Assembly: GCF_002849855.1 (NCBI RefSeq) | Contig: NZ_CP018619.1 | Coordinates: forward strand, 1-64,000 | DNA length: 64,000 nt | From: Vibrio azureus | GTDB lineage: Bacteria > Pseudomonadota > Gammaproteobacteria > Enterobacterales > Vibrionaceae | Reading direction: 5' to 3' | In this document: positions 14,957 to 57,818 of the stretch, in pieces | How positions within the stretch are numbered: the stretch's first letter is position 1 | How the letters are laid out: each line of letters opens with the position of its first letter | Notes under the pieces: model-generated | The model's database searches: none | Seen by the model: only the letters and a program-made list of their open reading frames with translations | What the model was told of the DNA's origin: nothing | Made by a program: the position numbers and the translations under genes

Positions 14957-15030
14957 AGATATGCCCTAATCTCAAATTCTAAAAAGGACAATACCTAGCC
15001 ATAAGGACATGTATTGCCCTTATGGGTTAA
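14957..15030 (-). promoter_or_regulatory. Two-hairpin start-site switch before the 141-residue gene
   Basis: Hairpin 1 is CCATAAGG/CCTTATGG with GGGCAATACATGT in its loop. Hairpin 2 pairs AGGTATTGTCCT with AGGGCATATCT, burying the AGGG ribosome-binding site. GGGCAATAC of hairpin 1 is also complementary (one G-U) to GTATTGTCC of hairpin 2, so the two folds can exclude each other. Confidence 0.55.
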
Positions 15031-15053
15031 GTTTTTTGTTGAGGTGCTAGTTA

Positions 15054-15578
15054 TTAAACCCAGCCCCTCTCAGCAAATGAAATTACGGTTTCACCAACAA
15101 TGAAGTGATCCAGCACTCTCACATCAATCATGCTTAATGCATCTTGTAGTTTTCGAGTAATGCGTTTGTCAGCTTGACTTGGTTCAGCGATGCCACTTGG
15201 ATGATTATGACAAAATATCACTGCAGCCGCGTTCCACATTAGGGTGTGTTTTACAACCTCACGAGGATAAACAGAAGCAGCATCAATTGTGCCATAAAAC
15301 AACGTCTCAAATTTAATGATCCGATGTTGATTATCTAAAAACAGCACACCAAATACTTCTCTTTCTATGCCTTGTAAAAGGCCAGAGAGAATATGCTTTG
15401 TGTGTTCAGGACTACTCAAAGCTTCACCTTTAGCAAAACTGTCAGCAGCCATTGCGTGGGCAATTTCTAGTAACTCTTGAGGTGTCACAGGCTGAGTAAG
15501 CTTGTAGTAGTGTTCTGAAAAATCATTAACTTCAAGTTTTAGTAGCTTTCCATTACCGTAAGAGTTTTTGTAATTCAT
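15054..15578 (-). CDS. radC: RadC/JAB-domain protein
   Basis: The protein has 174 residues from the ATG at 15578, which has GGAG five bases upstream. The second half is the RadC MPN+ domain with a JAMM-type metal site (FCHNHPSG, then ADKRITRKL) and the closing block [19 protein letters not shown]. Chromosomal RadC is about 220 residues; plasmid and ICE homologues are shorter and lack the N-terminal helix-hairpin-helix. They occur commonly beside anti-restriction genes in conjugative leading regions. The biochemical role is still debated. The ribosome-binding site is inside a perfect 7-bp stem. Confidence 0.88.
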
Positions 15579-15626
15579 AAGGGCTCCAAAGTAAAATGGA
15601 GCCCCCATGAGGAGCCCCATGGGTGA
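15579..15626 (-). promoter_or_regulatory. Start-site hairpins before radC
   Basis: GGGCTCC-ATTTTACTTT-GGAGCCC is a perfect stem whose 3' arm holds the GGAG ribosome-binding site. A second stem CCCATG/CATGGG lies just upstream, and its loop holds another GGGCTCC that could replace the 5' arm. Here the two arms are copies, not complements, unlike the other elements of this family. Confidence 0.5.
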
Positions 15627-15656
15627 GTGAAGTGGTTGTCTATCTAATCGATGGAC

Positions 15657-16067
15657 TTATGACTCAATGTATTTCAAAACTTCTTCTTTCGTCGTAATGA
15701 TTAACATCGGTATTTTTTCATTGCTGAGTTCAATGCTGCAAAATAAATCGACAGGCTGATTAATGTAGATGCTATCCACTGTTGGCGGTTTGCAAACGGT
15801 GAACGTAACCTGCGAGGATTCTGGCACTTTCCGTGCTGCTCTCCAGGCAAGCTTTAGCAACTGACGTATCAAGCTGTCTTGCGAGCATTCTTGAAGTGTT
15901 TCAGGAACATTAACAACGGTGTTAAATGCCAACCGACTGATGCCAGTGCATTCAAAGTAGAAACCCGCTTCTTTGGCTTGGTTTGTGATATCCACAAAAT
16001 CCAATGCCTCCACCTCTAAGGTTTTCTCTTTGATGTGCTTTGAGAATTGCGGTTGTATTTTTTCCAT
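15657..16067 (-). CDS. DUF6573-family protein
   Basis: The protein has 136 residues. The order VDITNQAKEAGFYFECTGIS, then LLKLAWRAARKVPES, then VTFTVCKPP and a strand-rich end with KIPMLIITTKEEV matches DUF6573, a family found on phages and conjugative elements near anti-restriction genes. Function is unknown. It is the second gene of the operon behind leader repeat copy 2. Its ribosome-binding site AAGGAGT is in a hairpin. Confidence 0.65.
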   Translation of the reverse strand: MEKIQPQFSKHIKEKTLEVEALDFVDITNQAKEAGFYFECTGISRLAFNTVVNVPETLQECSQDSLIRQLLKLAWRAARKVPESSQVTFTVCKPPTVDSIYINQPVDLFCSIELSNEKIPMLIITTKEEVLKYIES

Positions 16068-16120
16068 AAAATGACTCCTTAATAAAGGGAGTCATCCCTC
16101 TAGGAAATGAACTCCCTAGA
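16068..16120 (-). promoter_or_regulatory. Two-hairpin start-site switch before the DUF6573 gene
   Basis: Hairpin 1 is CCTCTAGG/CCTAGAGG around GGGAGTTCAT. Hairpin 2 is GACTCC/GGAGTC, sequestering the AAGGAG ribosome-binding site. GGGAGTTCAT can pair with ATGACTCCC of hairpin 2 with a single bulge, which would free the start site. Confidence 0.55.
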
Positions 16121-16148
16121 GGTAAGTAATGGTTACAGGTTGTTGTGG

Positions 16149-16331
16149 TTAAGCTCTATTTGCTAGTTTTTTTGCATACCACATAATGAATATGGGTAAA
16201 TAATTGCGCTTGATGAGCGACAAATATGCAGAAAAGTAAGCGGTAGAGATGTTACTGCTTACGACTAGCCAAAGGACAGTGAGTAAGAGACCCCAAAAAA
16301 CCACGTTAACGAGTAAAGTTGAAAAGTCCAT
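16149..16331 (-). CDS. Small membrane protein, first gene after leader copy 2
   Basis: The protein has 60 residues from the ATG at 16331; a longer frame starting at 16406 is less likely because AGGAG precedes 16331 and the upstream codons belong to the hairpin leader. One long hydrophobic helix (FSTLLVNVVFWGLLLTVLWL) is followed by a short basic tail. Single-helix proteins of this kind are common in leading regions and may act at the membrane, but I cannot name a function. Confidence 0.55.
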   Translation of the reverse strand: MDFSTLLVNVVFWGLLLTVLWLVVSSNISTAYFSAYLSLIKRNYLPIFIMWYAKKLANRA

Positions 16332-16394
16332 GTGTTGCTCCTGTAATACAAACAGGGAACACTTGCCCACAGGGAAAGGTTCCCTGGTGGGTGG
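16332..16394 (-). promoter_or_regulatory. Two-hairpin start-site switch before the 60-residue gene
   Basis: Hairpin 1 is CCACCAGGGAA/TTCCCTGTGG. Hairpin 2 pairs GTGTTCCCTGT with ACAGGAGCAACAC, covering the AGGAG site. CAGGGAAC of hairpin 1 is an exact complement of GTTCCCTG in hairpin 2. Confidence 0.6.
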
Positions 16395-16397
16395 TGA

Positions 16398-16580
16398 TAG
16401 CGCCAAAGCTTGCGCTAAGGGCAGTTAAAGAATGCTTTCCAATTTCTTTCTTGCTAAGCAGAAAGAAATCGCGACACGTTTCAGAAAGCCATTTAAGGGG
16501 GTTGCCCGTGTGCTTAACACTTTACGTCAGTGTTCAACGAAAACGGCCCGAGGTTAATTGAGTTTAGGGAGGATTGTCAA
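16398..16580 (-). repeat. Structured leader repeat, copy 2 (full length)
   Basis: This 183-bp copy is nearly identical to copy 4 over its whole length. On the minus strand it starts with TTGACAATCC (a -35-like hexamer, with a poor TTAACC 17 bp on). Hairpins: AACACT/AGTGTT, TTTCTTTC/GAAAGAAA, AGCGC/GCGCT. In the second stem, copies 1, 3 and 4 have TTTCTCTC with GAGGAAA, so both sides changed together. Confidence 0.8.
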
Positions 16581-16629
16581 CCACTTAAAAGAAACAAATT
16601 GTCCAGATGAATTGTGTTAAGTTTCATAA

Positions 16630-16649
16630 CGGAGTAAAGTCAAGTTATG
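16630..16649 (+). promoter_or_regulatory. Iteron-like box upstream of duplicate A
   Basis: CGGAGTAAAGTCAAGTTATG shares CGGAGTAAA and the spacing to GTCA with the RepB iterons. The same box lies at 17331-17350 before duplicate B. It may be a RepB contact point or a coincidence. Confidence 0.3.
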
Positions 16650-16666
16650 AGATGCAAGGAGGTACT

Positions 16667-16912
16667 ATGTTAGCGTTTTTGAAGAGATGGCGTCAGGCCT
16701 ACCTCGAAGACAAATCCAATCGACTACACGCAGAAGCCGAAGCTGAACGTAATGCTTTGTGTGCAGGAGGTATAAGTTTTGATGAGGCGGAAAGTGCTTT
16801 AAATCACCTAAATAAGAGTGATGCTATTTTGGATGCATGGGTTGAGGCGGAAGAGCAACTTTATGAAGATAGTTGGGTTAATAATTATTATGAAGATACG
16901 ACACGTTACTAA
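16667..16912 (+). CDS. Small charged protein, duplicate A
   Basis: The protein has 81 residues. The ATG at 16667 has a perfect AAGGAGGT six bases upstream. MLAFLKRWRQAYLEDKSNRL begins a helical, highly charged protein with an acidic tail. Its first 45 residues are nearly identical to duplicate B at 17368; the C-terminal parts differ completely. It is convergent with a spare traG tail. Function is unknown. It is a member of a 0.7-kb tandem duplication, and its differing C-terminus suggests diversification after the copying. Confidence 0.6.
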   Translation: MLAFLKRWRQAYLEDKSNRLHAEAEAERNALCAGGISFDEAESALNHLNKSDAILDAWVEAEEQLYEDSWVNNYYEDTTRY

Positions 16913-16978
16913 TATAGTTTAATGTAGAGCTATGACACCTACTAAAGTTGCCATAGCTCTTAATTACCTACCTATTTT

Positions 16979-17230
16979 TTAGCTTTTGAAAAAATTTCTA
17001 ACTGCCCCGGCCGCCGTATTCCTAGCCACATCAACGCCCTTTTGAGTCGCTTGATTTACTTTTTCAACGGCACTGTCTATCGAGACGCCATTGACTTTGT
17101 AACTGGTGTAACCCAGTATCCCAAACCATACAGCTGACACAATGGCGTAAAAGGCAATCATTGTCAGCTTTAAGATGGAATTATCCATGCCGTTCATCAT
17201 TCCTATTATTGGGTTGAAGTTGTCGTGCAT
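16979..17230 (-). CDS. Spare traG C-terminal tail
   Basis: The frame has 83 codons. Residues 1-60 are nearly identical to the C-terminal part of the full TraG-like protein (MHDNFNPIIGMMNGMDNSIL...), then the two diverge: this copy ends AAGAVRNFFKS, the full protein ends KFIGNKV. Homology continues about 16 codons upstream of the ATG to an in-frame stop. AAGGGG lies eight bases before the ATG, in both this copy and full-length traG, so it could be translated alone. It may be either a pseudogene fragment or a donor cassette for tail exchange. Confidence 0.6.
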   Translation of the reverse strand: MHDNFNPIIGMMNGMDNSILKLTMIAFYAIVSAVWFGILGYTSYKVNGVSIDSAVEKVNQATQKGVDVARNTAAGAVRNFFKS

Positions 17231-17367
17231 GTTGTATACCCCTTCGATCAGTTTGCTGTCTAATCTACTGCACAGTTTCTACTTAAATAAAAGTCACAAC
17301 TAGCTAGACTTATTGCGTTAAGTTTCATAACGGAGTAAAGTCAAGCTATGAGATGAAAGGAGGTATT

Positions 17368-17610
17368 ATGTTAGCGTTTTTGAAGAGATGGCGTCAGGCT
17401 TACCTGGAAGACAAATCCAATCGACTACACGCAGAAGCGGAAGCTGAACGTAATGCTTTGTGTGCAGAAGGTATGAGTTTTGATGAAGCGGTCTGTTCTT
17501 TAAATAAAAAATCGAGTGATGAACTCTCCGATTGGCTGAAAGCATTTACTAAAGCACATGAAGAATGTACGGAGTATGAAGAAGATGAGGAGTTCTATAG
17601 GTCTTCCTGA
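17368..17610 (+). CDS. Small charged protein, duplicate B
   Basis: The protein has 80 residues. The ATG at 17368 follows AAAGGAGGT. It shares MLAFLKRWRQAYLEDKSNRL and the next 25 residues with duplicate A, then differs (KSSDELSDWLKAFTKAHEEC and an acidic tail). It is convergent with full-length traG, in the same relation as duplicate A has to the spare tail. Function is unknown; the constant pairing with a traG tail suggests a role in mating-pair formation or exclusion, which is an inference. Confidence 0.6.
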   Translation: MLAFLKRWRQAYLEDKSNRLHAEAEAERNALCAEGMSFDEAVCSLNKKSSDELSDWLKAFTKAHEECTEYEEDEEFYRSS

Positions 17611-17827
17611 TAAATTAATATAATGCTTAAGCTCACATGACTTTTCAGAGTATCTTAGTACCTCAATTTAATACAGCTCCTCACTTACAAACATTCTGAG
17701 TTATAAGTAACTCGATCACTCTTACCTATTTATATGTACATATAACCTTTCTAAGAAGGCAATTAATTCAGAATCCCATATTCTCTATTAACGGCCTTCT
17801 TGGTTAGCCTTTAAAAAGGCATCAAAT

Positions 17828-19414
17828 TTAGACTTTATTACCTATGAATTTAATTACTCTGTCGCTTCCTTTTTGAGCTGTTGTATTTACTTTTTCAACG
17901 GCACTGTCTATCGAGACGCCATTGACTTTGTAACTGGTGTAACCGAGTATCCCAAACCATACAGCGGGCACAATGACGTAAAAGACAATCATTGTCAGCT
18001 TTAAGATGGAATTATCCATGCCGTTCATCATTCCTATTATTGGGTTGAAGTTGTCGTGCATGTTGTATACCCCTTCAATCAGTTTGCTGTCTAAGCTTCG
18101 GCACAGTTCCCACCAAAAGGTCAAAAACTGCAGACCAAAGTAGCTCAGAGTCAGTGACATTAACGTCATCATATTAAAGCCACTGATGGTAAGAACGATG
18201 GGGCTGGCAACGATGAGAACGGTGATCATAAAAGCTTGAATCATAGGCATTGCTTCGCGAATAGCAAAATAGGCAGGGCCAATGATTGCGTGACCCAGTT
18301 CCACGCCCAAGTAACCCACACCGCCGTTCCAAACCTCTCTGGCTTCGTGGTCAAGCGTCTTGTTTAACACTTGGCCATAGCCACGGACGATGCGACCGTC
18401 CGTGGATTGGTTCTCAACACTTAAGACACGTTGCACCAACATATCGGCTTTGTCTTCAGGGGTAAGCTCTGGACCAAAGAAACGGCCAAAGAACCCACGA
18501 CTGTCTAAGATTTCCCCCACCAATTCAGTGTTGTGCTTCTCAACATCATTAAACAAACGCCATTTCAGACCCGCTCTTTGTCCATCGGCACGCCCGTTTT
18601 TGCTCTCCCACCATTCGTTGCAGTAAGGATAGGCTGCACTGGTATCGACTGGTGCGCTGCTGTATTGCTGTTGTACGGGGTTATCCCGTGAGGCATTATA
18701 TGGGAAATTAAACACGGCCTTCTCTGCTTGTAACTCGTTGTAGCTACTCTTGGGGAGTAAGGGGTTTGTCTTCATAAAGTAATGCCCCCCAAGCCAATTG
18801 GCTTCATCAAAGTCATCTTGGTCAACCAATTCTTTACGAGCGGCGGCTTTCATCGCGATACGAGCGCGAGTGAAACATTGCTCGTAGAAATCTTGTGTTT
18901 CTTGACGTAGCTGTTCACTGCGGATATCGAGCTGAGAAATTTGCAACATGCTTCGCTCGATGTCGTAGTGACACGGTATCGAAGAAACGGCAGCATTGGT
19001 GATGCCTTGCGAAATCGAATGCCACAGACTCCACCAAACAGGGACTAACACTCTCTCACCATTAAAGGTGGTTTGGGTTGATGATGTGGCTCCTGAACTG
19101 ATGCCAACACCACAGCGCTCGCTGGCGTCTTGGTCAAGCTGGAGTGTGTTGACGTTCGCGGGCCACATCGGGAGGACTGCGAACAAACACACTAAAGTCG
19201 CGAGGATCATTTTCACTTCTGTGCGGTTAAGGCTCAGCAAACCTTTATTGCCCTCATCTTCCCCTTCTTGGGCAACCTCAACCCAAACCTGAAACACAAT
19301 CACCGTCAGCATAAAAATAAGCAAGTTGGTTTGGTTCAAGACAATCATGATTTTGTTGGCGATGTACCAACCTTCCATGGTTAATAGGGCTGAGAGTGGA
19401 TCATTTACGACCAT
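17828..19414 (-). CDS. traG: TraG-like mating-pair protein (ICE type)
   Basis: The protein has 528 residues. It corresponds in position and layout to the TraG N-terminal-like inner-membrane proteins that end the tra operon of PFGI-1-type elements. Hydrophobic segments lie near the N-terminus (ANKIMIVLNQTNLLIFMLTV, then MILATLVCLFAVLPMW) and near residues 385-430 (FMITVLIVASPIVLTISGFNMM); the middle is periplasmic with several Cys. It overlaps the upstream gene by 10 bp. F-type TraG stabilises mating pairs and takes part in entry exclusion. The last 80 residues exist in a second diverged copy at 16979. Confidence 0.8.
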   Translation of the reverse strand: MVVNDPLSALLTMEGWYIANKIMIVLNQTNLLIFMLTVIVFQVWVEVAQEGEDEGNKGLLSLNRTEVKMILATLVCLFAVLPMWPANVNTLQLDQDASERCGVGISSGATSSTQTTFNGERVLVPVWWSLWHSISQGITNAAVSSIPCHYDIERSMLQISQLDIRSEQLRQETQDFYEQCFTRARIAMKAAARKELVDQDDFDEANWLGGHYFMKTNPLLPKSSYNELQAEKAVFNFPYNASRDNPVQQQYSSAPVDTSAAYPYCNEWWESKNGRADGQRAGLKWRLFNDVEKHNTELVGEILDSRGFFGRFFGPELTPEDKADMLVQRVLSVENQSTDGRIVRGYGQVLNKTLDHEAREVWNGGVGYLGVELGHAIIGPAYFAIREAMPMIQAFMITVLIVASPIVLTISGFNMMTLMSLTLSYFGLQFLTFWWELCRSLDSKLIEGVYNMHDNFNPIIGMMNGMDNSILKLTMIVFYVIVPAVWFGILGYTSYKVNGVSIDSAVEKVNTTAQKGSDRVIKFIGNKV

Positions 19415-20957: not shown

Positions 20958-20976
20958 TTTCCAATCCTTGTTGTGA

Positions 20977-21930: not shown

Positions 21931-21931
21931 G

Positions 21932-47435: not shown

Positions 47436-47489
47436 ATCAAAGCAGGGAAAAAAAATACTCGTTAAAAATAATTATTTCTAACGAGTATT
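47436..47489 (-). promoter_or_regulatory. Transfer-regulon palindrome and promoter 3 (pil operon)
   Basis: The 36-bp palindrome (47454-47489) is the same as copy 1. -35 TTAACG and -10 TTTGAT (47436-47441) are 18 bp apart. On the other side TGCTATCCTATGCAG is shared in part with copies 1 and 2. Confidence 0.82.
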
Positions 47490-47528
47490 TATTATTTTAG
47501 TTATGCTATCCTATGCAGTTATTTTCAT

Positions 47529-47685: not shown

Positions 47686-47714
47686 TAAAACTCGGCCTCT
47701 TTACCAAGGAGGAG

Positions 47715-48428: not shown

Positions 48429-48632
48429 TTAGTAAGGTGCTCGTTCAAAGCGAAAAATAGAACGAGTATCAGTTGATTCATCCCAAACGATATAATCTGT
48501 AAGCAGATTTTTTACTAGCTCAATATCATTAGGATAAAAGCGATGATCCAGCATTTTTATGCCTGCTCTCGCGAGTTCAGGTGGGGTAATGTCACTGCCT
48601 TTCGCAACGGAAAAAGTCACTAAGTTTTTCAT
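48429..48632 (-). CDS. Small protein of the leader copy 3 operon
   Basis: The protein has 67 residues from the second of two adjacent ATG codons (48632), which is better spaced from GGAG. MKNLVTFSVAKGSDITPPEL and a mixed alpha/beta pattern; not recognised. It follows the STY4534-family gene after a terminator at 48761-48796, so expression may depend on read-through. Confidence 0.5.
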   Translation of the reverse strand: MKNLVTFSVAKGSDITPPELARAGIKMLDHRFYPNDIELVKNLLTDYIVWDESTDTRSIFRFERAPY

Positions 48633-48690
48633 CATTCTCTCCAATGAAAAAAGGAGAGACGACACCCAGGGGATCGAATCCCCGGTGGGT
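48633..48690 (-). promoter_or_regulatory. Two-hairpin start-site switch before the 67-residue gene
   Basis: Hairpin 1 is ACCGGGGAT/ATCCCCTGGGT. Hairpin 2 is CTCTCC/GGAGAG with the ribosome-binding site in its 3' arm. The alternative pairing (GGGGA with TCTCC) is short, the weakest of the family. Confidence 0.4.
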
Positions 48691-48760: not shown

Positions 48761-48796
48761 AAAAAAGAAAACCCCAACATACAAAGTATGATGGGG
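48761..48796 (-). terminator. Terminator after the STY4534-family gene
   Basis: CCCCATCATAC and GTATGTTGGGG arms with TTTTCTTTTTT following on the minus strand. Confidence 0.7.
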
Positions 48797-48806
48797 TAGT
48801 TAAGTA

Positions 48807-49229
48807 TCAAGCCGCTTGTTGTTCACAATTGCTTGATTGGAATAGAACCTGTTGGTTCACTTTGAGGTACTTTACTCGCAGAAGGCGACCTTTGAGGGCT
48901 GCACCTGTCTGACCCGGTTTCGAAGCATGGTTGCTCGGGTAAGTAAAAGTATCTAAGTACAAGTCGCCAATCACAAAGCTCAATGAGCCCGTGCTTTGAC
49001 CTTGACCGAACTTGATTTTATCTAGCTGATGTTGTTCGAAAAGAGCCATCGCTTCTTTGCCAACAACTTTACAGTCTATGTACGTTTTTTCGTTATCATC
49101 ACCTCGTAAACAGGCAATGGTGACGGCGTAAAACGGGTTGCCTCTCTTTGGTACTACTTTACGAACGCGGTTAAGATAACCGAAACCAGTTGTATGTAGA
49201 TCAAAGTAAGCGTTTGAGTTGTTCGACAT
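48807..49229 (-). CDS. STY4534-family ICE replication protein (DUF3577)
   Basis: The protein has 140 residues. FDLHTTGFGYLNRVRKVVPK, NPFYAVTIACLRGDDNEKTY and YIDCKVVGKEA are diagnostic. The fold is OB-like and related to single-strand DNA-binding proteins; family members are encoded next to ssb and topB in SPI-7/PFGI-1 elements. It follows leader copy 3 and has an 11-bp start-site stem. It could protect the incoming strand. Confidence 0.85.
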   Translation of the reverse strand: MSNNSNAYFDLHTTGFGYLNRVRKVVPKRGNPFYAVTIACLRGDDNEKTYIDCKVVGKEAMALFEQHQLDKIKFGQGQSTGSLSFVIGDLYLDTFTYPSNHASKPGQTGAALKGRLLRVKYLKVNQQVLFQSSNCEQQAA

Positions 49230-49302
49230 AATTTTTCTCCATGACAGGCTGCACGAGAAAAATTACTGTCCCACTGGGAAATAATTTTCCCGTGTGGGTA
49301 GA
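49230..49302 (-). promoter_or_regulatory. Two-hairpin start-site switch before the STY4534-family gene
   Basis: Hairpin 1 is CACGGGAAA/TTTCCCAGTG. Hairpin 2 pairs TAATTTTTCTC with GAGAAAAATTA, a perfect 11-bp stem that covers GGAG. CACGGGAAAATTA of hairpin 1 can pair with TAATTTTTCTCGTG (one bulge, one G-U). Confidence 0.65.
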
Positions 49303-49312
49303 ACAAAGTATG

Positions 49313-49452
49313 AGCGCCAAAGCTTAAGCTAAGGGCAGTATAAGAATGCTTTCCAATTTCTCTCTTGCTAAGCAGAGGAAATCGCGACACGTTTCAGAAA
49401 GCCATTTAAGGGCGGTTAAACCCGTGTGCTTTGTACTTTACGTCAGTACACA
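49313..49452 (-). repeat. Structured leader repeat, copy 3
   Basis: Core identical in most positions to copies 2 and 4. The outer hairpin reads TGTACT/AGTACA where copies 2 and 4 read AACACT/AGTGTT, and AGCTT/AAGCT replaces AGCGC/GCGCT: two independent compensatory changes. The distal promoter-like part (TTGACAATCC) is missing. Confidence 0.8.
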
Positions 49453-49455
49453 ACG

Positions 49456-49695
49456 TTAAACATCCTGAGGATAGCAGTCGAAAATCACTTGTAAAGCATT
49501 TTTTGGTAACGATGTATCTCCAAATGTTTCACAGGTTGTTTCACTCTCTCGATGAATGCATCGACGGTGAGCCAAACACAACATGCCAAAATCCGGCTCG
49601 CTGATGATCACCGGATTTATATAAATCGGCTGTTTGCAGACTGGACACTCTGGAAACACTTCGCTTGGAATATCATTAACATGGATGACATTCAT
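49456..49695 (-). CDS. Small zinc-binding protein after topB
   Basis: The protein has 79 residues from the ATG at 49695 with GGGGAG six bases upstream; an ATG at 49740 is a possible alternative. CPVCKQPIYINP and CLAHRRCIHR form a zinc finger. Before the TnpB element inserted, it directly followed topB in the ssb operon. Not recognised. Confidence 0.6.
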   Translation of the reverse strand: MNVIHVNDIPSEVFPECPVCKQPIYINPVIISEPDFGMLCLAHRRCIHRESETTCETFGDTSLPKNALQVIFDCYPQDV

Positions 49696-49864
49696 AGATG
49701 ACTCCCCACGGCTACCCAGCGATTGTTCTTCAATTTCCATTGTCTTATTCCCCAATTACCAATAAGCCGTAAAGCCCCGTCCTTTAGGTCGGGGATGTAA
49801 GGCATTGCTACGAAGTAGCAAAAGAATAGTTGATTGCTTACAGAAATTGTAGGATGCTGTAAAA

Positions 49865-50950
49865 ATGAAAAGAGCATACCGTTATAGATTCTATCCAGAT
49901 AATCAGCAAGCCGAACTACTGGCAAAGTCGTTTGGTTGTTGTCGTTTTGTCTGGAACAACTCGCTAAAGTATCGCACTGACGCATACTATGAGCGCGGTG
50001 AATCTATTTCCCACTCTTTTCTTGAGAAACGCCTAGTACATTTGAAAGCTGAATTTGAATGGCTAAAAGAGGTATCAAGCGTTGTCTTTCAACAAGCACT
50101 AAGAGATCAGCAAGAAGCATTTAAAAACTTTTGGGATCATCGTGCTAAGTATCCTCGCTTCAAATCGAAGCACGATAAGCAATCAATACGCCTAACTAAA
50201 GCCGCTTTCAAATACAAAGACGGTCTACTATTCATTGCCAAATCAAAGCAACCTCTTAACATCAAATGGAGTCGTGAGCTTCCAAGTGAACCAAGCTCAA
50301 TCACGATTTCAAAAGATAAAGCAGGTCGATACTTTGTATCCATGCTTTGCGAATTTGAGCCTACAGCACTACCAGTAACGCCTAACATGGTTGGTATTGA
50401 TGTAGGTCTAAACCACCTATTCATCACGGATAGCGGTGAGAAAGTCGATAATCCTCGCCACTTCAAACGCTACGAAAAGAAACTCGCTTATCTTCAACGT
50501 CAACTGTCAAAGAAACAACGCGGCAGTAAGAATCGTGACAAGATGCGACACAAAGTAGCCCGTCTACATGCAAAAATTGCCGATAGTCGATTAGATAACT
50601 TACACAAGTTGTCTCGCAAACTCATTAACGAAAACCAAGTTGTTTGTGTTGAATCGCTTCAAGTGAAGAATATGCTCCGTAATCCAAAACTAGCTAAACA
50701 CATAGCCGATGTGAGTTGGGGTGAGTTTGTACGCCAACTTGAATACAAGACTGAATGGGCTAATCGAACTATCGCCAAGATTGATAGATTCTTCCCTAGC
50801 TCTAAACGTTGTAGCTGTTGTGGGTTCGTGAATGAAGCAATGCCGTTGAATGTCCGTGATTGGGTGTGTCCGTCTTGCGAAACACACCACGATAGAGACA
50901 TAAACGCAGCTAAGAACATAAAAACCGCAGGGCTTGCGGGGTTAGCTTAG
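49865..50950 (+). CDS. tnpB: TnpB RNA-guided nuclease
   Basis: The protein has 361 residues and looks intact. RuvC residues: Asp in VGIDVGLNHLF (about 179), Glu in VVCVESLQVKN (about 263), Asp in HHDRDINAAKNIK (about 344). The zinc finger CSCCGF/CPSC is present, and the N-terminal domain (YRYRFYPDNQQAELLAKSFG) is complete. TnpB uses a guide RNA from the element's right end to cut DNA next to a TAM equal to the left target, here TTAC. It overlaps the altered end of topB on the other strand. Confidence 0.92.
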   Translation: MKRAYRYRFYPDNQQAELLAKSFGCCRFVWNNSLKYRTDAYYERGESISHSFLEKRLVHLKAEFEWLKEVSSVVFQQALRDQQEAFKNFWDHRAKYPRFKSKHDKQSIRLTKAAFKYKDGLLFIAKSKQPLNIKWSRELPSEPSSITISKDKAGRYFVSMLCEFEPTALPVTPNMVGIDVGLNHLFITDSGEKVDNPRHFKRYEKKLAYLQRQLSKKQRGSKNRDKMRHKVARLHAKIADSRLDNLHKLSRKLINENQVVCVESLQVKNMLRNPKLAKHIADVSWGEFVRQLEYKTEWANRTIAKIDRFFPSSKRCSCCGFVNEAMPLNVRDWVCPSCETHHDRDINAAKNIKTAGLAGLA

Positions 50951-51044
50951 GGAGCGACTGGATCGGGGGTTGAGTGGAAACACTCAGCCTAGTGAAAGCG
51001 TGTCGAACTAAGAATCCTCTTCCTTTAGGGAGAGGAGCAGTCAA
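50800..51044 (+). ncRNA. Probable omega RNA of TnpB
   Basis: In this family the guide RNA covers the 3' end of tnpB and the right end, including the hairpin at 51016-51035, and its guide is the flanking DNA just beyond TCAA. Here the guide would be topB sequence starting GTTGCCAATTTTACC. The 5' boundary is a guess. Confidence 0.5.
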
Positions 51045-53141
51045 GTTGCCAATTTTACCTTTGTCATCAAAGTGTCGGATTTGACACCCTTGCTTCCAGG
51101 CTGAACAACTCCAGTACCAACTGCCTTTATTTTTTCCAGCTTTACGGACTTGGACCCCTTGCTTACATGAACAAGGGGCGTTTTTAGCGGGTTTGCTTCT
51201 TACACTGTCTAGAATTAACCCACATTTATCTTTTGCTTGGCATACCCAAATTGAGTGCTTACCCTGAATTAACTTCATATTGCCTTTGCATAAAGGGCAG
51301 GGTTCAATAGGTTGGATAACTTTTGGGAGCTCAAGTGTTACTTCGCCATTTTTTACTTTACTGACCAGCGCCCTAACAAACCCCTCTTGATTCGCCATGA
51401 AGTCGTCAAAAGGCATCGCCCCTTGCTCAATGCTCTCTAACGCTTGCTCCCAAATCGCGGTCATGGCTGGACTGGACAGTTCGTTAGGTAAAGCATGGAT
51501 CAATGCTCGGCCCGTATCCGTACTGATCAATTTCTTACCTTTGTTCACGACATAACCACGTTTCTTCAACGTCTCCAAAACACCGGCACGGGTTGCTTGT
51601 GTTCCGAGCCCTGCAGTTTCCTTCAGAATGTTCTTAAATTGGGCTGGAATCGTGTCACTGCGAGCAATGTTGGCCATCGCATCCAGTAATGTACCTTCGC
51701 TGAAGGCAGACGGTGGACTAGTCTTCTTGTTGAGTACTTTTGCAGACGATATCGTGACAGATTCACCGTTCGATAAAGCGGGCAAAGTTTGAGTACCTTC
51801 TTCATCTTGAGCTTCGGCCTCTTTACCTAAAACCACTCGCCAGCCGGCAACGCGTTCAATCTTTCCAGAGGCCTTAAAAGCATGTTCGCCACAACGAATA
51901 TTAATGGTTGTGATGTCATCCTCTGCAGACTCAAAGAACTGCGCGAGATATCGCTCGACAATAGCCTGATAGACGTGTTTTTCTCGTTCACTGAGCCCTT
52001 CAAGTGAAGGCTTTTTGAATGTAGGGATGATCGCATGGTGAGCACTTTGCTCGACCTTCTTATCGTTCCAACAACCGCTTTTAATTTGAGGGTTGGCTTG
52101 CTGACAATGAGAATGGTATGCATCAAGGTCACCAAGAGCTTGCAAAACTAAAGGGGCTTCAGCCAATTGAGACAGTGGCAAATAATCGCAATCGGTACGA
52201 GGGTAGGTTGTCAACTTGTGCTTCTCGTACAAGGCTTGCGCCGCATCCAACACTTGCTGAGCAGTGTGACCGTGTTTTGCTGACATCTCCTTTTGTAGAG
52301 AGCCAAGATGGAACAATTTAGGGTGCGAAACTTTGCGACGTTTCGTCTCAAAGTCCGTCACTTGTGCGGTTTGACCTTGACACTGATTCACGACATTCTG
52401 AGCTGCTGCAGAAGACAGGCAGCGATTTGCCTCATCAGCCAGAGATTCTGGCACCTGCCATTTGGCCCGAAAGCCGGCATCAACAAAAACATCGTAAAAA
52501 GGAACAGGGACAAAATGTGCGATGGCCTCGTCGCGCTCAACGACAATTCTTAAAGTTGGAGTCTGAACACGACCGACCGAGAGGACGTTTGTATAACCGG
52601 CTTCTCGCCCAATCACAGTACACAAACGGGTAAAGTTCATGCCAATGAGCCAGTCTGCACGAGATCTAGCTCGGCCAGATTGGTGAAGCGGCTTGGTCTC
52701 GTGGCCGGGCTTCAATGTGGCCAAGCCTTTTTTGATGCTTGCCTCATCCAAAGAGCTTAACCAAAGTCTTGAAACCGGCCCCGTGTAGTTGTGATGTTCC
52801 AAAATATCACGAGCGATGACCTCGCCTTCTCGATCAGGGTCAGTCGCAATGACCACCTCCGTCGCTTTGGCCAAACAACGTTGAACAGCGGCTAATTGTT
52901 TTTTCTTATCCGCTGGAACAACGCTTTTCCACGGAGCAGGAATAATCGGCAAGAGGTCAAGTGACCACGTTTGATACGCCTCATCATAGTGTTCAGGATC
53001 GGCTTGGGCGAATAAATGACCAACACCCCAAGTCACAATGGCACCATTACCTTGCAGCGCACCGTCTAGCTTTTGGTTGCAGCCTAACACTTTGGCTATA
53101 TCACGGCCTTGTGACGGTTTTTCGCAAAGAAAGACTTTCAT
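50910..53141 (-). CDS. topB: DNA topoisomerase III, C-terminus altered by IS insertion
   Basis: The protein has 743 residues. Toprim (MKVFLCEKPSQGRDIAKVLG, TDPDREGE), active-site block TTYPRTDCDYLP (Tyr near 317), and two C-terminal zinc fingers (CPLCKGNMK, and CSCKQGVQ to CSAWKQGC). Codons from the native gene end after DDKGKIGN at 51045; the remaining 45 residues are read from the TnpB element. Without the insertion the frame would have ended VIGE. The catalytic parts are untouched, so activity is probably kept. TopB decatenates transferred or replicated plasmid DNA. Confidence 0.9.
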   Translation of the reverse strand: MKVFLCEKPSQGRDIAKVLGCNQKLDGALQGNGAIVTWGVGHLFAQADPEHYDEAYQTWSLDLLPIIPAPWKSVVPADKKKQLAAVQRCLAKATEVVIATDPDREGEVIARDILEHHNYTGPVSRLWLSSLDEASIKKGLATLKPGHETKPLHQSGRARSRADWLIGMNFTRLCTVIGREAGYTNVLSVGRVQTPTLRIVVERDEAIAHFVPVPFYDVFVDAGFRAKWQVPESLADEANRCLSSAAAQNVVNQCQGQTAQVTDFETKRRKVSHPKLFHLGSLQKEMSAKHGHTAQQVLDAAQALYEKHKLTTYPRTDCDYLPLSQLAEAPLVLQALGDLDAYHSHCQQANPQIKSGCWNDKKVEQSAHHAIIPTFKKPSLEGLSEREKHVYQAIVERYLAQFFESAEDDITTINIRCGEHAFKASGKIERVAGWRVVLGKEAEAQDEEGTQTLPALSNGESVTISSAKVLNKKTSPPSAFSEGTLLDAMANIARSDTIPAQFKNILKETAGLGTQATRAGVLETLKKRGYVVNKGKKLISTDTGRALIHALPNELSSPAMTAIWEQALESIEQGAMPFDDFMANQEGFVRALVSKVKNGEVTLELPKVIQPIEPCPLCKGNMKLIQGKHSIWVCQAKDKCGLILDSVRSKPAKNAPCSCKQGVQVRKAGKNKGSWYWSCSAWKQGCQIRHFDDKGKIGNLTAPLPKGRGFLVRHAFTRLSVSTQPPIQSLPKLTPQALRFLCS

Positions 53142-53734: not shown

Positions 53735-53745
53735 TGTTTACCTCC

Positions 53746-54153
53746 TTATTTTTCCGCTGATAGTTGACGAACTTTCATTGAAATTGATTCGATACGGCGA
53801 GGACAAATAGATATCTCGGATGCAGTAACCGCCATGCCATTGACGAGTTCACCTGTATTTTTATCCTCCCAACTGTCCATTCTTAATTCACCCGATATTT
53901 TTACTCGCATGCCTTTTTGTAATAGCTTACTGAGCTCTTCTGCATCTTTTCCCCAGTAACTAACGTCTACCCAAAAACCGCCTTTATCTTCGTAAGAATT
54001 CTCTTCATTCTGCATTTTCACTAATCGGTCATATTTGACATTAAACTTAAGCAAGGGACGTGATTCGCCATTTGAGCGTTCATTACCTGGTTGCCAACGT
54101 AATTCAGGGGTAACACCAATATTGCCATCAAATAGAAATAAACCTTTTGCCAT
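53746..54153 (-). CDS. ssb: Single-stranded-DNA-binding protein (ICE type)
   Basis: The protein has 135 residues with an OB fold: GNIGVTPELRWQPG, FNVKYDRLVK, GFWVDVSYWGKDAEELSKLL, GMRVKISGELRMDSWEDK. It lacks the acidic DDDIPF-type tip that recruits host repair proteins. It is the first gene of the operon with topB, 73 bp from the operator centre. Confidence 0.82.
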   Translation of the reverse strand: MAKGLFLFDGNIGVTPELRWQPGNERSNGESRPLLKFNVKYDRLVKMQNEENSYEDKGGFWVDVSYWGKDAEELSKLLQKGMRVKISGELRMDSWEDKNTGELVNGMAVTASEISICPRRIESISMKVRQLSAEK

Positions 54154-54190
54154 TGTTTTTATCCTTTCCAGTTAAAAGAAAGAAAAACTT

Positions 54191-54244
54191 AACAAAGTAA
54201 AAATTAAAAATACTTGTTAAAAATAATTATTTCTAACGAGTACT
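54191..54244 (-). promoter_or_regulatory. Transfer-regulon palindrome and promoter 4 (ssb operon)
   Basis: ATACTTGTTA and TAACGAGTAC arms (54209-54244). -35 TTAACA and -10 TTTGTT (54191-54196), again 18 bp apart. The most diverged copy, but same geometry. Confidence 0.78.
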
Positions 54245-54368
54245 TATATTTTATTTTGTGTTAAACTAGGGCGTTTTTATCCCAAAAACAAACCTACTTT
54301 AAATTTATAAAATTCAGAGTGGACAGGATTTGATTATTTCCCACCCATCTCAATGACTTGTATTATTC

Positions 54369-54698
54369 TGCCTCATATTATCACTGCACTGTATTTACAA
54401 TGCCTCATAATTTTATAATATGTCTCAGTAGTAAAGCCGTCGCTAAGCTCCTCTAATATTAGGGGAATCGTGCTTCTTCGGTTATTTCCATTTGCCTCAC
54501 TTTTTATTTCATTGCCTCATAAGTAATTTGTCCATAAGCCCTCTGTAGCCCTAGCGCCCCCTCAGGGTGTCGCGCTTTGCTTACACCTTGAGGGGACGCT
54601 AGGTTGCATGGCACGGGGCTTCTGTTATCCTACTGAGGCAAAACCCCACAAATTAACGGTTAACAGATATTTTTCTCATTGTAATAAAGAATGAGGCA
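54369..54698. promoter_or_regulatory. Cluster of TGCCTCAT boxes around a long hairpin (candidate recombination site)
   Basis: TGCCTCA occurs at 54369, 54401, 54493 and 54513 in one orientation, and as TGAGGCA at 54634 and 54691, with further copies inside the following genes (54930, 55513, 55684). The set flanks the long inverted repeat at 54551-54602. Arm-type integrase sites around a core would look like this. Confidence 0.5.
54551..54602. repeat. 20-bp inverted repeat with 12-nt loop
   Basis: CTAGCGCCCCCTCAGGGTGT and ACACCTTGAGGGGACGCTAG pair at 18 of 20 positions plus one G-T. GC-rich in an AT-rich region, and without a T-run, so not a terminator. It could be the crossover site of the adjacent tyrosine recombinase or an oriT-like structure. 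Confidence 0.65.
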
Positions 54699-54702
54699 GG
54701 TC

Positions 54703-54921
54703 ATGGATATAATGAAAAATCATGAAATAACCGATAATGATGATTTTAGAATCTATAGAAATAAGCCGTCAAAACTTGATCCATTTAAAAAAGAGGTAAT
54801 GATCTTAAAGTTATGCGGCATGAGCTATCGAAACATTGCAGAATATCTTGCTACAGAAAAGCAGTTGAAGGTTACGCCTAGAAATATTCAATATCGAATG
54901 GAGAAATGGTTGGATGAATAG
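54703..54921 (+). CDS. Small helix-turn-helix protein 1
   Basis: The protein has 72 residues from the ATG at 54703 (the ATG at 54691 lies in a TGAGGCA box). KLDPFKKEVMILKLCGMSYRNIAEYLATEKQ is a Resolvase/MerR-like helix-turn-helix pattern. The next gene is a paralogue (KLDPFRYDILTLRYEKSCSLAVIQLWL). They may act as excisionase or regulator of the recombinase. Confidence 0.6.
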   Translation: MDIMKNHEITDNDDFRIYRNKPSKLDPFKKEVMILKLCGMSYRNIAEYLATEKQLKVTPRNIQYRMEKWLDE

Positions 54922-55177
54922 ATTAAAGGATGAGGCATTAATTCATATAAAGAACAAGATCCTAAAGACAAGAGGTAATGTTGAGGTTAAAAAACGTAAA
55001 CGGCGCTACACATCAAAATTAGATCCATTTAGGTACGATATCTTAACGTTACGTTATGAAAAATCATGTAGCTTAGCAGTCATCCAACTATGGCTAAAAA
55101 ACAATAAATCCATAAGTGTGTCAAAGATAGCCATTTTAAATCGCATTAATCACTGGCAAGGCATTGAAAGAGAATAG
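54914..55177 (+). CDS. Small helix-turn-helix protein 2
   Basis: The protein has 87 residues. It overlaps gene 1 by 8 bp and shares the SKLDPF motif and helix-turn-helix spacing. It has a very basic segment (VEVKKRKRRYTSKLDPFRYD). It contains a TGAGGCA box near its start. Probably a DNA-binding partner of the recombinase. Confidence 0.6.
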   Translation: MNRLKDEALIHIKNKILKTRGNVEVKKRKRRYTSKLDPFRYDILTLRYEKSCSLAVIQLWLKNNKSISVSKIAILNRINHWQGIERE

Positions 55178-55184
55178 GATTTTA

Positions 55185-56117
55185 ATGGCAAAGAAAGATA
55201 AGACCAGAAAGAAATTAAACGACCAATCCGAACGGTTTTTTAAGCATCACTACTTTGGTTTAGGAAAAATCAAATCAAAAGGAAGCCGACTTATTCACGG
55301 CCGAAGAACCTACGCAGAGCAAATAAGGATCGTCAGTAAAGCGGCTTATGATATGGGTGTAAAAAAGCTCAAGTTTATTACTCCTGAAATGGCGCAAGAA
55401 TATCTAGAACGATGCCGCGATAAAGGGCTAAGTCAGAAATATTTATCGACCATAAGAGTGGCACTAGAGCGCGTCGTGTACGTAAAGGAAGTCGGTAAAA
55501 GATTGATGAGGGTTGAGGCATTACCCAAGCATGAACGAAGCCTAAAAGAGCAGAACCGGGCCTACACTGCTGAGCAACTTTCTTTAATCTATGAGCGCCT
55601 AACTCCGCAAGGAAAGCTGTCATTACTACTGGCATACAACGCGGGCCTGAGGGCAGAAGAGATACTGACATTACAGCGAAGAGATGAGGCAAGTCCCTCC
55701 ACTCGAAGAGATTGGATAGAAGATCGTTTCAAAGGTAGAGAGCCTGGTCTTATTTACATTGTGACAGGCAAAAATGGGCTAAGACGTGAAGTGATGATAG
55801 AAAAGGATCTGGCAGGGGTATTAGAAACCTTGCGCTTTGAAAAGCCAGAATTAATCCATGATCGTAAACTGCCTTTTAAGATCCATTATGACGTTCTCGG
55901 TGGACTGCAATTTTCTAGCGCTTTTTCGAAAGCTTCAAGGCAAGTTTTAGGTTGGTCACTTGGTGCCCACGGACTGCGCTTTAGCTATGCGCAGCGTCGA
56001 ATTGATGAGGAAATGCTAGGTGTCCCATACCAGGACGCGAAACTTATCGTTAGCCAAGAACTAGGCCACTTTAGAGAAGACATTACTGAGCGGTATATAG
56101 GCTCACAACCAAACTAG
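55185..56117 (+). CDS. Tyrosine recombinase (Integrase_1/Phage_int_SAM_2 type)
   Basis: The protein has 310 residues from the ATG at 55185 with AGGA upstream. N-terminal SAM-like DNA-binding domain; catalytic domain with Arg in YNAGLRAEEIL (about 155), HGLRFSYAQRR (262), LGHFREDITERYIGSQ with His and the nucleophile Tyr near 303. All key residues are present. The family is widespread on Vibrio and Shewanella plasmids and ICEs. It may resolve plasmid dimers or integrate the element. Confidence 0.88.
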   Translation: MAKKDKTRKKLNDQSERFFKHHYFGLGKIKSKGSRLIHGRRTYAEQIRIVSKAAYDMGVKKLKFITPEMAQEYLERCRDKGLSQKYLSTIRVALERVVYVKEVGKRLMRVEALPKHERSLKEQNRAYTAEQLSLIYERLTPQGKLSLLLAYNAGLRAEEILTLQRRDEASPSTRRDWIEDRFKGREPGLIYIVTGKNGLRREVMIEKDLAGVLETLRFEKPELIHDRKLPFKIHYDVLGGLQFSSAFSKASRQVLGWSLGAHGLRFSYAQRRIDEEMLGVPYQDAKLIVSQELGHFREDITERYIGSQPN

Positions 56118-56133
56118 TCGCTTTTAAAAAGAG

Positions 56134-56152
56134 AAGCCTGATAACCAGGCTT
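56134..56152 (+). terminator. Terminator of the recombinase gene
   Basis: AAGCCTG and CAGGCTT arms; the following TTTCGATATTTCTT is only a moderate T-tract. Confidence 0.5.
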
Positions 56153-56329
56153 TCGATATTTCTTAAGTTAACGCCTCTCGGCGACGTGGTTTCCCACGAA
56201 TTAATCAATAAAGCTGATTTCTGCTTGTCAGCACAAGTACCGACGTTGTGTGTACCAGAACGCGTTCTAGTAGATGATTTATTGATGAACGGGCTTCCTA
56301 AAAGCGTCACATATCACCAAAGTTAGAAT

Positions 56330-56356
56330 GACCACTGCCCGTAAGGGCAAGTGGTC
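56330..56356 (-). terminator. Hairpin at the end of the leader copy 4 operon
   Basis: GACCACTTGCCC and GGGCAGTGGTC arms on the minus strand. No long T-run follows. Confidence 0.5.
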
Positions 56357-56389
56357 CATTTGAGTTAATCAAGGACAATTGAAGAGTGG

Positions 56390-56572
56390 TTAAAGTCCGT
56401 TATCTTTTTCCCATTTTTCCAACGCATCCGTCATTTCTTCGACATATTGATCGCTTTGTCGACACTCGTAGTAAAGCGGATGTGAAGTCAATTCGTACAG
56501 TTCATGCATAACTTTTTTGTATTCAGCTTCAGATTTAATCACTAAATTCATGTTAGGTTTTACCATTGCCAT
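56390..56572 (-). CDS. Small acidic protein, third gene of the leader copy 4 operon
   Basis: The protein has 60 residues and is helical (SEAEYKKVMHELYELTSHPL, VEEMTDALEKWEKDNG). It resembles small accessory or antitoxin-like proteins but has no clear family. GGAGG lies 5 bases before the ATG inside a hairpin. Confidence 0.5.
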   Translation of the reverse strand: MAMVKPNMNLVIKSEAEYKKVMHELYELTSHPLYYECRQSDQYVEEMTDALEKWEKDNGL

Positions 56573-56638
56573 ATCGGCCTCCGTTTAAAAAAAAAGGCCA
56601 GCAATGCCCTAGGGGCTTTGATGGCCCCATAGGGTTTA
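56573..56638 (-). promoter_or_regulatory. Two-hairpin start-site switch before the 60-residue acidic gene
   Basis: Hairpin 1 is CCCTATGGGGC/GCCCCTAGGG. Hairpin 2 is GGCCT/AGGCC with GGAGG in its 3' side. GGCCA of hairpin 1 can pair with TGGCC of hairpin 2. Confidence 0.5.
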
Positions 56639-56742
56639 AGTTTGTTAAGAAAACGAGCTAGCGCGCTACGCTTACTCAAATCTTCGATAAGCAAGGCCAA
56701 AAAACGCCTTACTTACAAAGATTTTTATTTTCAGTTAAGCCT

Positions 56743-57318
56743 TTAAGGGGCTTTCTTAGCTTGAGCTATCTTCAATTCAAGATTTCGATTGAATTTTAAG
56801 TTTAACAAATGCATTTTGAATATGTTTATGGCTTCTTTCACGCTACAGCTACGGTACATGCCATCATTATCTTGATCATCCAGATAACAAAAAGCGCGTG
56901 CACCAGGGTTGTTCGTCATGATCAGCTTAAACAACGTTATAGTGCATCCAGAAACTGGCCTACCCTCAGACATTTGTTCATCGATGCATTCAGCGATAAA
57001 ACTCAGCTTGCCGCCGTCCTCCATATCTCTATCCAAAGCATCCGCGGATGCTTGAATTGAAGCTTCCAAATTCTCTTCACATGTATGGCAAACTTCTTGA
57101 GAGCATTGATGAAATCCGCAGTGAGTGCAATCAAGTGAAGACACCTGATTTATGCTCCCCCCTAAACATTCATCGAAAACGCATTCGAATGCTAGATGAC
57201 CGCAGTCAGGGCATTCAGTATCATTACGGTCACCGTCTGCATCGAGTACGTTATCTCGAACAAAGATGCCAGCTTCCACTAAATAACCATTTCCGTTATC
57301 GAAAAGTTCTTTGCACAT
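56743..57318 (-). CDS. Multi-zinc-ribbon protein, second gene of the leader copy 4 operon
   Basis: The protein has 191 residues from the ATG at 57318 (AAGGAA upstream). Three Cys pairs in the first 80 residues (CPDCGHLAFEC, CTHCGFHQC, CHTCEENL) form zinc ribbons; the C-terminal half is a helical/strand mix with YLDDQDNDGMYRSCSVKEAI. Similar ribbon proteins are common on plasmids. Function is unknown. Confidence 0.6.
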   Translation of the reverse strand: MCKELFDNGNGYLVEAGIFVRDNVLDADGDRNDTECPDCGHLAFECVFDECLGGSINQVSSLDCTHCGFHQCSQEVCHTCEENLEASIQASADALDRDMEDGGKLSFIAECIDEQMSEGRPVSGCTITLFKLIMTNNPGARAFCYLDDQDNDGMYRSCSVKEAINIFKMHLLNLKFNRNLELKIAQAKKAP

Positions 57319-57385
57319 AGGTATTTCCTTTTTTAATAATAAAAGGCAATACCTTCCCCCAACAGGCAATGTATTGCCCGAATGG
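57319..57385 (-). promoter_or_regulatory. Two-hairpin start-site switch before the zinc-ribbon gene
   Basis: Hairpin 1 is GGGCAAT/ATTGCC. Hairpin 2 pairs AGGTATTGCCTTTT with AAAAGGAAATACCT (one mismatch), covering AAGGA. GGCAATAC of hairpin 1 is an exact complement of GTATTGCC of hairpin 2. Confidence 0.65.
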
Positions 57386-57392
57386 GTGAGTG

Positions 57393-57743
57393 TTACTTTA
57401 TAGGTGGTAGCTGAATATCAGGGTAAACCTCTTGTAACAGCTCTCTCGCATATGACTCGTGTTTATATGTCGTCGCCGTTTTTCGTTCAGTTTTTTTTGC
57501 GAATCGATATGAGTCTCGCAGTTCTTTTATCGTAGTATGCTGATCACAAACAGAAAGACTGATCCCTTGACCTAATTTACCTCCTTCAAGTATCAATGAA
57601 TCTGTGTAACCGCAATCATTAACAAGTATTTCATGAATCTTCACGATTCTGATGGTAGAGGCAAGATCGGTTGAGTTCAGCCAGACAACCTCTGATTTAA
57701 TATCAGCTGATACGCTGGAACGAACTTTACGTTTAGAAGTCAT
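57393..57743 (-). CDS. First gene of the leader copy 4 operon, function unknown
   Basis: The protein has 116 residues; basic N-terminus, then an alpha/beta pattern (IRIVKIHEILVNDCGYTDSLIL) and a helical end with YARELLQEVYPD. Not recognised. Position directly after a leader repeat parallels the STY4534-family gene and the small membrane gene in the other two operons. Confidence 0.6.
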   Translation of the reverse strand: MTSKRKVRSSVSADIKSEVVWLNSTDLASTIRIVKIHEILVNDCGYTDSLILEGGKLGQGISLSVCDQHTTIKELRDSYRFAKKTERKTATTYKHESYARELLQEVYPDIQLPPIK

Positions 57744-57818
57744 GGCATTTCTCCGTATAGATGCTGCACGGAAAAACGATAATTCCCCTCTGGAAAATCA
57801 TATTTTCCGCGAGGGTGG
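57744..57818 (-). promoter_or_regulatory. Two-hairpin start-site switch before the 116-residue gene
   Basis: Hairpin 1 is GGAAAAT/ATTTTCC inside CCCTC/GAGGG. Hairpin 2 pairs TTTTTCCGT with ACGGAGAAA, covering GGAG. CGGAAAA of hairpin 1 is complementary to TTTTCCG of hairpin 2. Confidence 0.6.

Follow-up and report, generated by a model that had tools for sequence, protein, structure and literature searches.

The 64,000 nucleotides studied here (the window: positions 1 to 64,000 of Vibrio azureus contig NZ_CP018619.1, assembly GCF_002849855.1) lie within a 108,596-bp contig whose relatives at the DNA level are Vibrio and Aliivibrio plasmids. Six of the seven relatives were typed as conjugative, and MOBH was the type assigned to NZ_CP117990, NC_016851, and NZ_CP016309. 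Nine genes of the window, all read on the minus strand and including radC and a DUF3577 gene, are each preceded by an element of two adjacent hairpins, P1 and, next to the start codon, P2. Genes are named here by the position of their start; the arms of P1 are called A and A', and those of P2 are called B and C, with the ribosome site in C. An initial annotation of this sequence had placed the nine genes in leader-controlled operons, and the three window operons that bear the element do begin with a leader.

Minimum free energy folding of the leaders returned two adjacent hairpins upstream of all nine starts, which is the plan that the initial annotation had described. In a comparison of 69 window gene starts, hand-listed as likely genes, the mean fold z score was -3.76 for the nine versus -0.23 for the other 60 (Mann-Whitney p 3.8e-6), with the nine filling 8 of the 10 and 9 of the 11 lowest ranks, and the mean unpaired probability of the ribosome site was 0.23 versus 0.47 (p 7e-4). 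The remaining two of the eleven lowest-ranking starts are 6662 and 26527 (tra region); refolding showed the former to be a single long hairpin inside a coding sequence and not of the two-hairpin kind. The latter, together with the ssb start at 54153, passes a loose two-hairpin filter, yet neither gives a match below E 1 to the covariance model R1 introduced below, and with these qualifications it is mostly true, as first claimed, that tra, pil, and par genes are without the plan. What is conserved across elements is the feet of the stems and generic parts (ACCC, GGGG, UCCCC, GGG, CUCC, GGAG), and the arms are gene-specific; the notion that the pairing logic is conserved and the sequence is not applies to the arms and fails for the feet and generic parts.

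The plan is commoner than in shuffled controls. A strict rule (C-rich and G-rich feet, P1 <= -9, P2 <= -5) was passed by 7 of 117 open reading frames (ORFs) of the plasmid itself versus 1, 1, 0, 0, and 0 in five shuffles, the kind of control that the initial annotation had proposed, by 23 of 369 on seven related plasmid loci versus 2, 4, 0, 1, and 2 in shuffles, and by 58 of 502 on distant loci versus 11 and 6; none of 247 passed in 300 kb of the two largest contigs. A first scanner, which gave 75 matches, was set aside as too loose. We also built a covariance model, R1, from 32 elements, none of them from the window. Over 409 kb (the plasmid contig and 300 kb of the large contigs), eight of the nine elements are the top-scoring matches, at 55 to 16.9 bits, and every one of these matches ends at the start codon. 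The match ranked ninth lies on a large contig (16.8 bits), and the 57743 element was missed. Across the complete genome (4.83 Mb, with 150 of 821 first-look candidates scored), all 15 matches listed at E<=0.05 fall on the plasmid-sized contigs C4 (seven) and C3 (eight; 123,705 bp), and the best match among scored candidates on the two large contigs has E 0.13. In a phylum sample searched under strict filtering, with scoring of 12 candidates for each genome, at least 31 of 398 genomes, our own included, and at least 26 of 212 genera have an R1 match at E<=1e-4. The two-hairpin observation is correct, and it reaches far beyond the window.

The pairing of A with B was measured as the duplex energy of the P1 5' arm plus loop against the B arm. 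The initial annotation had seen the 5' arm of the first hairpin complement that of the second in eight of nine cases, and eight of the nine do have an A:B energy of -11 kcal/mol or lower. The mean for own-gene pairs in the window is -12.6 kcal/mol, and of the 362,880 re-pairings none but the true one reaches this value. When 48 elements, picked by eye on their folds from 87 starts of relatives with the A:B idea already known, are added to the nine, own pairs average -11.0 versus -6.5 for swapped pairs (z -14.3), and the P1 loop alone supplies much of the fit. Fifteen ortholog groups with 94 members, chosen in part by a score that includes A:B, give -13.55 for own pairs versus -10.79 (z -10; 0 of 20,000). 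The cleanest test rests on 103 R1 matches from ten loci absent from the training set. An ORF of at least 30 codons begins at 98 of them, a rule blind to A:B divides 96 of these into two hairpins, and the 96 have own A:B energies of -14.1 versus -8.9 when swapped (z -20.8; 0 of 10,000 permutations), with a z of -14.8 for the P1 loop alone against its own B.

Table 1. Positions of the hairpins and operon leaders in the window (bits are R1 scores; ribosome-site letters are those paired in P2).
Feature	Positions	Strand	Remarks
P1, gene 14956 (141 aa)	14999..15025	-	A:B -15.2, no other A or B in set better; 16.9 bits
P2, gene 14956	14956..14997	-	Fold; weak AGGG-type site buried
P1, radC (start 15578)	15605..15622	-	RadC PF04002, E 1.5e-42
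P2, radC	15581..15604	-	GGAG buried; 18.0 bits
P1, gene 16067 (136 aa)	16097..16122	-	See P2
P2, gene 16067	16070..16096	-	AAGGAG buried; A:B and P2 covariation over 7 orthologs; 29.5 bits
P1, gene 16331 (60 aa; first gene behind leader)	16366..16391	-	32.9 bits
P2, gene 16331	16332..16362	-	AGGAG buried
P1, gene 48632 (67 aa)	48664..48690	-	55 bits, top match of the genome
P2, gene 48632	48631..48663	-	GGAG buried; own A:B weakest of nine
P1, DUF3577 gene (start 49229)	49270..49298	-	PF12101, E 3.4e-31; 25.1 bits
P2, DUF3577 gene	49228..49266	-	GGAG buried
P1, gene 56572 (60 aa)	56607..56634	-	26.3 bits
P2, gene 56572	56570..56606	-	GGAGG buried
P1, gene 57318 (191 aa)	57355..57389	-	27.7 bits
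P2, gene 57318	57319..57354	-	AAGGA buried
P1, gene 57743 (116 aa; first gene behind leader)	57786..57815	-	Missed by R1
P2, gene 57743	57746..57778	-	GGAG buried
Leader upstream of first element, 16331 operon	16396..16580	-	94% identical to 57800-58020 leader
Leader upstream of first element, 49229 operon	49286..49473	-	84% identity; downstream end overlaps P1 foot
Leader upstream of first element, 57743 operon	57800..58020	-	Query stretch includes P1 foot

Comparison of orthologs shows that the arms of A:B and of P2 change together. For gene 16067, seven orthologs that had been grouped at the protein level were scored for named structures on fixed columns. The A:B helix scored 0.381 versus 0.213 in shuffles (0 of 500 as high), with a maximum of 0.202 when the arms were slid and six cells changed on both sides, and P2 scored 0.464 versus 0.238 (1 of 500), with a slid maximum of 0.161 and eight such cells; the same B columns change jointly with A and with C. 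An apparent P1 covariation in an eight-leader alignment was withdrawn, one leader (L093) being from an unrelated gene. RNAalifold predicted no pair on an alignment of 49 elements, because the arms shift by one or two columns.

The element is linked to mobile DNA. On related plasmids it stands before DUF3577, RadC, DUF3275, DndB-like, and DUF1281 genes, with exceptions, among them the Aliivibrio fischeri RadC gene, which at its annotated start is without it, and DUF3577-bearing loci of other Proteobacteria, found via PF12101, carry it as well; a profile search of genome contigs with DUF3577 gave four loci. Elsewhere (locus labels are ours) the genes behind the element include RecT, MoxR-like AAA, and VWA/CobT-like genes on contig C3, RecT and ArdC-like genes at L127, RadC at L130, and a KlcA-type antirestriction gene at L131. 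The region of IncA plasmid pRA1 has 23 plus-strand R1 matches (E<=0.01); the genes behind them include bet, exo, DUF3150, VWA, and cytosine methyltransferase genes, and the tra genes of the stretch have no match at this threshold. An IncC plasmid region has 14 plus-strand matches at the same cutoff. Mobile plasmids probably use the element-bearing genes to settle in a new host cell. The accessible part of an article on bet and exo of SXT (PMC3118119) says nothing on native translational control. On contig C3, the stretch from 64001 to 84000 (L124) holds at least eight R1 matches, no clear copy of the Vibrio leader and, by eye, near-identical relatives of the 57318 and 56572 genes.

Energetics change with the length of the transcript. 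In RNA that stops where B ends, A:B can be forced at a median cost of 0.0 to 0.3 kcal relative to the best fold, and it is likelier than P1 in 61 of 87 test-set elements, 28 of 54 from the set of 57, 77 of 147 in a wider set, and 5 of 8 in the window (elements that the scanner could not split are omitted, which keeps 87 of 98, 54 of 57, and 8 of 9). With a swapped or shuffled B arm, the nascent cost rises to 6.7 to 8.6 kcal. At full length, OFF, the fold with both P1 and P2 formed, is favored, and a choice of fold is therefore possible while RNA polymerase is between B and C. An inner A':F3 hairpin of -2 kcal or lower is present in 60 of 62 distant and 38 of 76 Vibrionaceae elements. Finally, the interruptions of the stems read in the mRNA sense are G.U more often than A.C (50:15 in the test set, and 50:32 and 12:8 in two overlapping sets), which marks the mRNA-sense strand as the structured one and suggests RNA instead of entering DNA.

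The best explanation, to which we assign a probability of about two in three, is that the elements are cis-acting translational switches whose fold would be chosen during transcription. Each consists of six alternating segments: F5 (a C-rich foot), A (GGG with letters specific to the gene), A' (CCC), F3 (a GGG foot), B (letters specific to the gene with CUCC), and C (the GGAG ribosome site, again with letters specific to the gene). In the OFF fold, F5:F3 and A:A' would form P1 and B:C would form P2, hiding the ribosome site; in the ON fold, A would pair with B, A' could pair with F3, and C and F5 would be free. We infer that the fold is decided cotranscriptionally, before C exists, OFF being predicted to be the more stable once C is made. 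Pairing of A with B might start by invasion from the P1 loop, which fits B, or through a factor that keeps P1 open, and the input could come from a factor, or from the state of the leader, acting on P1 or the foot, or be simply the age of the transcript. Copies before many genes of an operon would let small, antirestriction, and recombination genes be switched together. Own-gene pairing, covariation of P2 and A:B, and the nascent balance, all read from sequences and folding models, strongly support the prediction of two helices that exclude each other, one hiding the ribosome site and the other exposing it, and through them the element would control translation. The initial annotation had likewise proposed a translational switch, with refolding during transcription and ribosome passage among the candidate triggers; the mutually exclusive folds and the first trigger are in keeping with these data and energies, and ribosome passage is disfavored, as discussed below.

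Several observations weigh against this explanation. The own A:B of 48632 is weak (-8.2, with 15 of 56 other B arms fitting better), and 6 of the 57 elements have an own A:B weaker than -6. The hairpin next to the start codon was said to bury GGAG or AAGGA, and burial does occur at all nine, but 14956 lacks a clean buried GGAG, having only the weak site given in Table 1, and its element is rejected by the strict scanner. Among the seven orthologs, the pairs changed on both sides (three each for A:B and P2) are not above shuffles (185 and 155 of 500), and P1 on fixed columns scores 0.083, with three slid versions higher, and does not covary there; of the arm covariation that the initial annotation had asked for, the A:B and P2 parts are seen in these orthologs and the P1 part is not seen on these columns. 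In RNA extending to the start codon, A:B costs 7.5 to 9.4 kcal and is the likelier fold in no element, and the score used for the nascent and barrier decomposition includes A:B and so favors it somewhat. If only nested moves are allowed, P1 forms first and the saddle from P1 to A:B is about 18-20 kcal (about 12-14 kcal from ON to OFF); because of this early P1 and high saddle, the RNA would go straight to OFF unless the loop initiates invasion or a helper intervenes. Even with A:B enforced in the full leader, only 32 of 82 Vibrionaceae and 18 of 63 distant elements have a ribosome site that is mostly open.

A possible alternative, though in our view a doubtful one, is that a trans-acting protein or small RNA binds the C-rich foot or P1 and flips the switch regardless of transcription timing. 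The A nucleotide just before the C-run of the foot is kept in 64 of 77 test-set elements with a CCC foot, where pairing does not need it (a similar figure from another set is partly built in by the search pattern); the foot would be free only in the ON fold, and near balance a modest binding energy could decide the outcome. Neither a shared regulator nor a complementary small RNA came to light, no systematic search having been made for either. A simpler idea, which we consider unlikely, is that the hairpins are static brakes or stabilize the mRNA, with P1 and P2 always formed and A:B irrelevant. The failure of A:B to prevail in full leaders and the high nested barrier from P1 would fit such a role, and hairpins between cistrons are commonplace. 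Static hairpins give no reason for A:B to be gene-specific and covarying, or for the nascent balance to vanish when B is swapped.

Three further rivals are less probable. Transcription attenuation, in which A:B and a U-rich P2 loop would form an intrinsic terminator, is very unlikely: a U-run stands just after B in many Vibrio-type elements (12 of 21 and 8 of 15), but in only 2 of 7 on this plasmid and 11 of 56 distant elements, though A:B is kept, and the ribosome site itself takes part in the pairing. An intrinsic terminator was rejected on these counts, the U-tract after the stem being absent from some members in every set. Slightly less credible still is opening of P1 by ribosome passage or by a leader peptide, as in translational coupling or erm-type attenuation. 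The starts at L016 46535 and L024 19259 are without the element, and coupling may replace it there because each start overlaps the upstream stop. Against this, the upstream stop shows no fixed distance from P1, the two overlapping in some cases and lying up to about 190 nt apart in others, the same element precedes first genes that follow a noncoding leader, and Shine-Dalgarno-led upstream ORFs running into P1 number 12 of 147 versus 18.0 expected, no excess by this sequence criterion; the ribosome-passage trigger of the initial annotation is accordingly abandoned. The least probable proposal, that the hairpins function in single-stranded DNA as it enters the cell, for instance as single-strand promoters, draws on the resemblance of the genes to entry or establishment genes and on such a role for STAXI RNA having been raised, and doubted, by Weinberg et al. 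(PMC2864571, in the part available to us), and is opposed by interruptions that on the mRNA-sense strand favor G.U over A.C and by pairing centered on the ribosome site.

Within the favored explanation of a cotranscriptional choice, a narrower version is tentative and somewhat less probable than the trans-acting factor: the element may be a translation timer, in which establishment genes could be translated only from new RNA, A:B forming first via the P1 loop and giving way to silent P1 and P2. If this were true, entry into a cell would be followed by a burst of antirestriction and recombination proteins and then by automatic shut-off, and radC, STAXI, and similar leaders would set the outcome at the operon head. 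More generally, if the elements are switches, one RNA design would govern many non-transfer core genes of several conjugative lineages, including IncA and IncC, the orphan radC and STAXI motifs would gain a testable context, and dozens of natural gene-specific versions of one switch would be at hand for studies of cotranscriptional folding.

Known systems offer partial parallels. Translational riboswitch platforms and anti-anti-Shine-Dalgarno switches hide or expose a ribosome site by mutually exclusive helices, as proposed here; riboswitches differ in that no aptamer-like conserved core is seen within the element, where only feet and generic parts are conserved. In erm and cat translational attenuation, alternative hairpins likewise bury a ribosome site, but the element is without leader-peptide enrichment. 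The MS2 maturation gene is translated only from nascent RNA, its site being open only before the final fold; by analogy, the same timing is proposed here, in a module repeated through operons of conjugative elements. No description of the element appears in the open-licence literature, as far as titles and abstract openings among the matches listed go.

The heads of the operons, where they could be named, are structured leaders: radC RNA, STAXI RNA, or an unnamed Vibrio leader. In the window, Rfam gave nothing relevant at gathering scores or E<=10, and the elements match no family; radC RNA (RF01754) has no window match at either cutoff, STAXI (RF01728) has none in the window or on a 331-nt leader piece (57700-58030), and that piece has no Rfam match at E<=10. 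At loci L049, L094, and L130, which were preselected (the first two for DUF3577, the third for the element itself), every one of the ten Rfam radC RNAs has an R1 match directly behind or overlapping it, a count that excludes a further radC place, L107, in the genome of L094. The one STAXI RNA seen, at a locus preselected for the element, has the element about 20 nt further on, before a KlcA-like gene. Among 15 loci searched, radC RNA is present in only two and STAXI in only one (one of eight in one of the two locus sets), and most operon heads are unnamed. The 9-kb piece of L131 contains a C4 antisense RNA and a STAXI RNA (334-419 and 7630-7785) and four minus-strand R1 matches. In the available excerpt of Weinberg et al. 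2010 (PMC2864571), both radC and STAXI are candidate motifs, the latter described beside antirestriction, SSB, and topoisomerase genes. The radC motif is alike in being an orphan cis-regulatory candidate that heads such operons, but it is a leader of about 150 nt, whereas the two-hairpin element is about 65 nt long, precedes many genes, and is not matched by the radC model. STAXI shares the antirestriction context, with the element close behind the single copy seen, but consists of tandem pseudoknots upstream and is not a ribosome-site switch.

Three of the four leader copies in the window are followed by the element. The fourth (8864-8955, minus strand) is without it and lies upstream of a MobH-like relaxase gene (8593); a short hairpin and then a T-run follow downstream (8640-8700, minus-strand reading), and for this reason the copy may give a short leader-derived RNA. 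GTGCAGC-type letters are common to the P2 loops of several first genes (49228-49266 and 57746-57778 in the window; L016 4636, L027 49901, and L089 14534 elsewhere), later genes differ, and 16331 and the Vibrio scophthalmi and A. fischeri DUF3577 genes are without them; these loops possibly make contact with the leader.

Other features of the window were also noted. Similar AT-rich palindromes with AACGAGTA(T/C)T-type arms lie at 47450-47493 and 54189-54264, before the 47397 gene and ssb (54153), and look like a shared protein-binding operator. Many CGGAGTAA-type repeats, iteron-like by eye, occupy 11400-11800, upstream of gene 11410, an apparent replication initiator to judge from its position among relatives. 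Also by eye, a small gene with its upstream sequence is present twice (16634-16912 and 17353-17610) and the stretch from 17230 recurs near 18066, a local duplication, and a plus-strand transposon-type ORF (49865-50950) overlaps the 3' end of a topoisomerase III gene (50910-53141).

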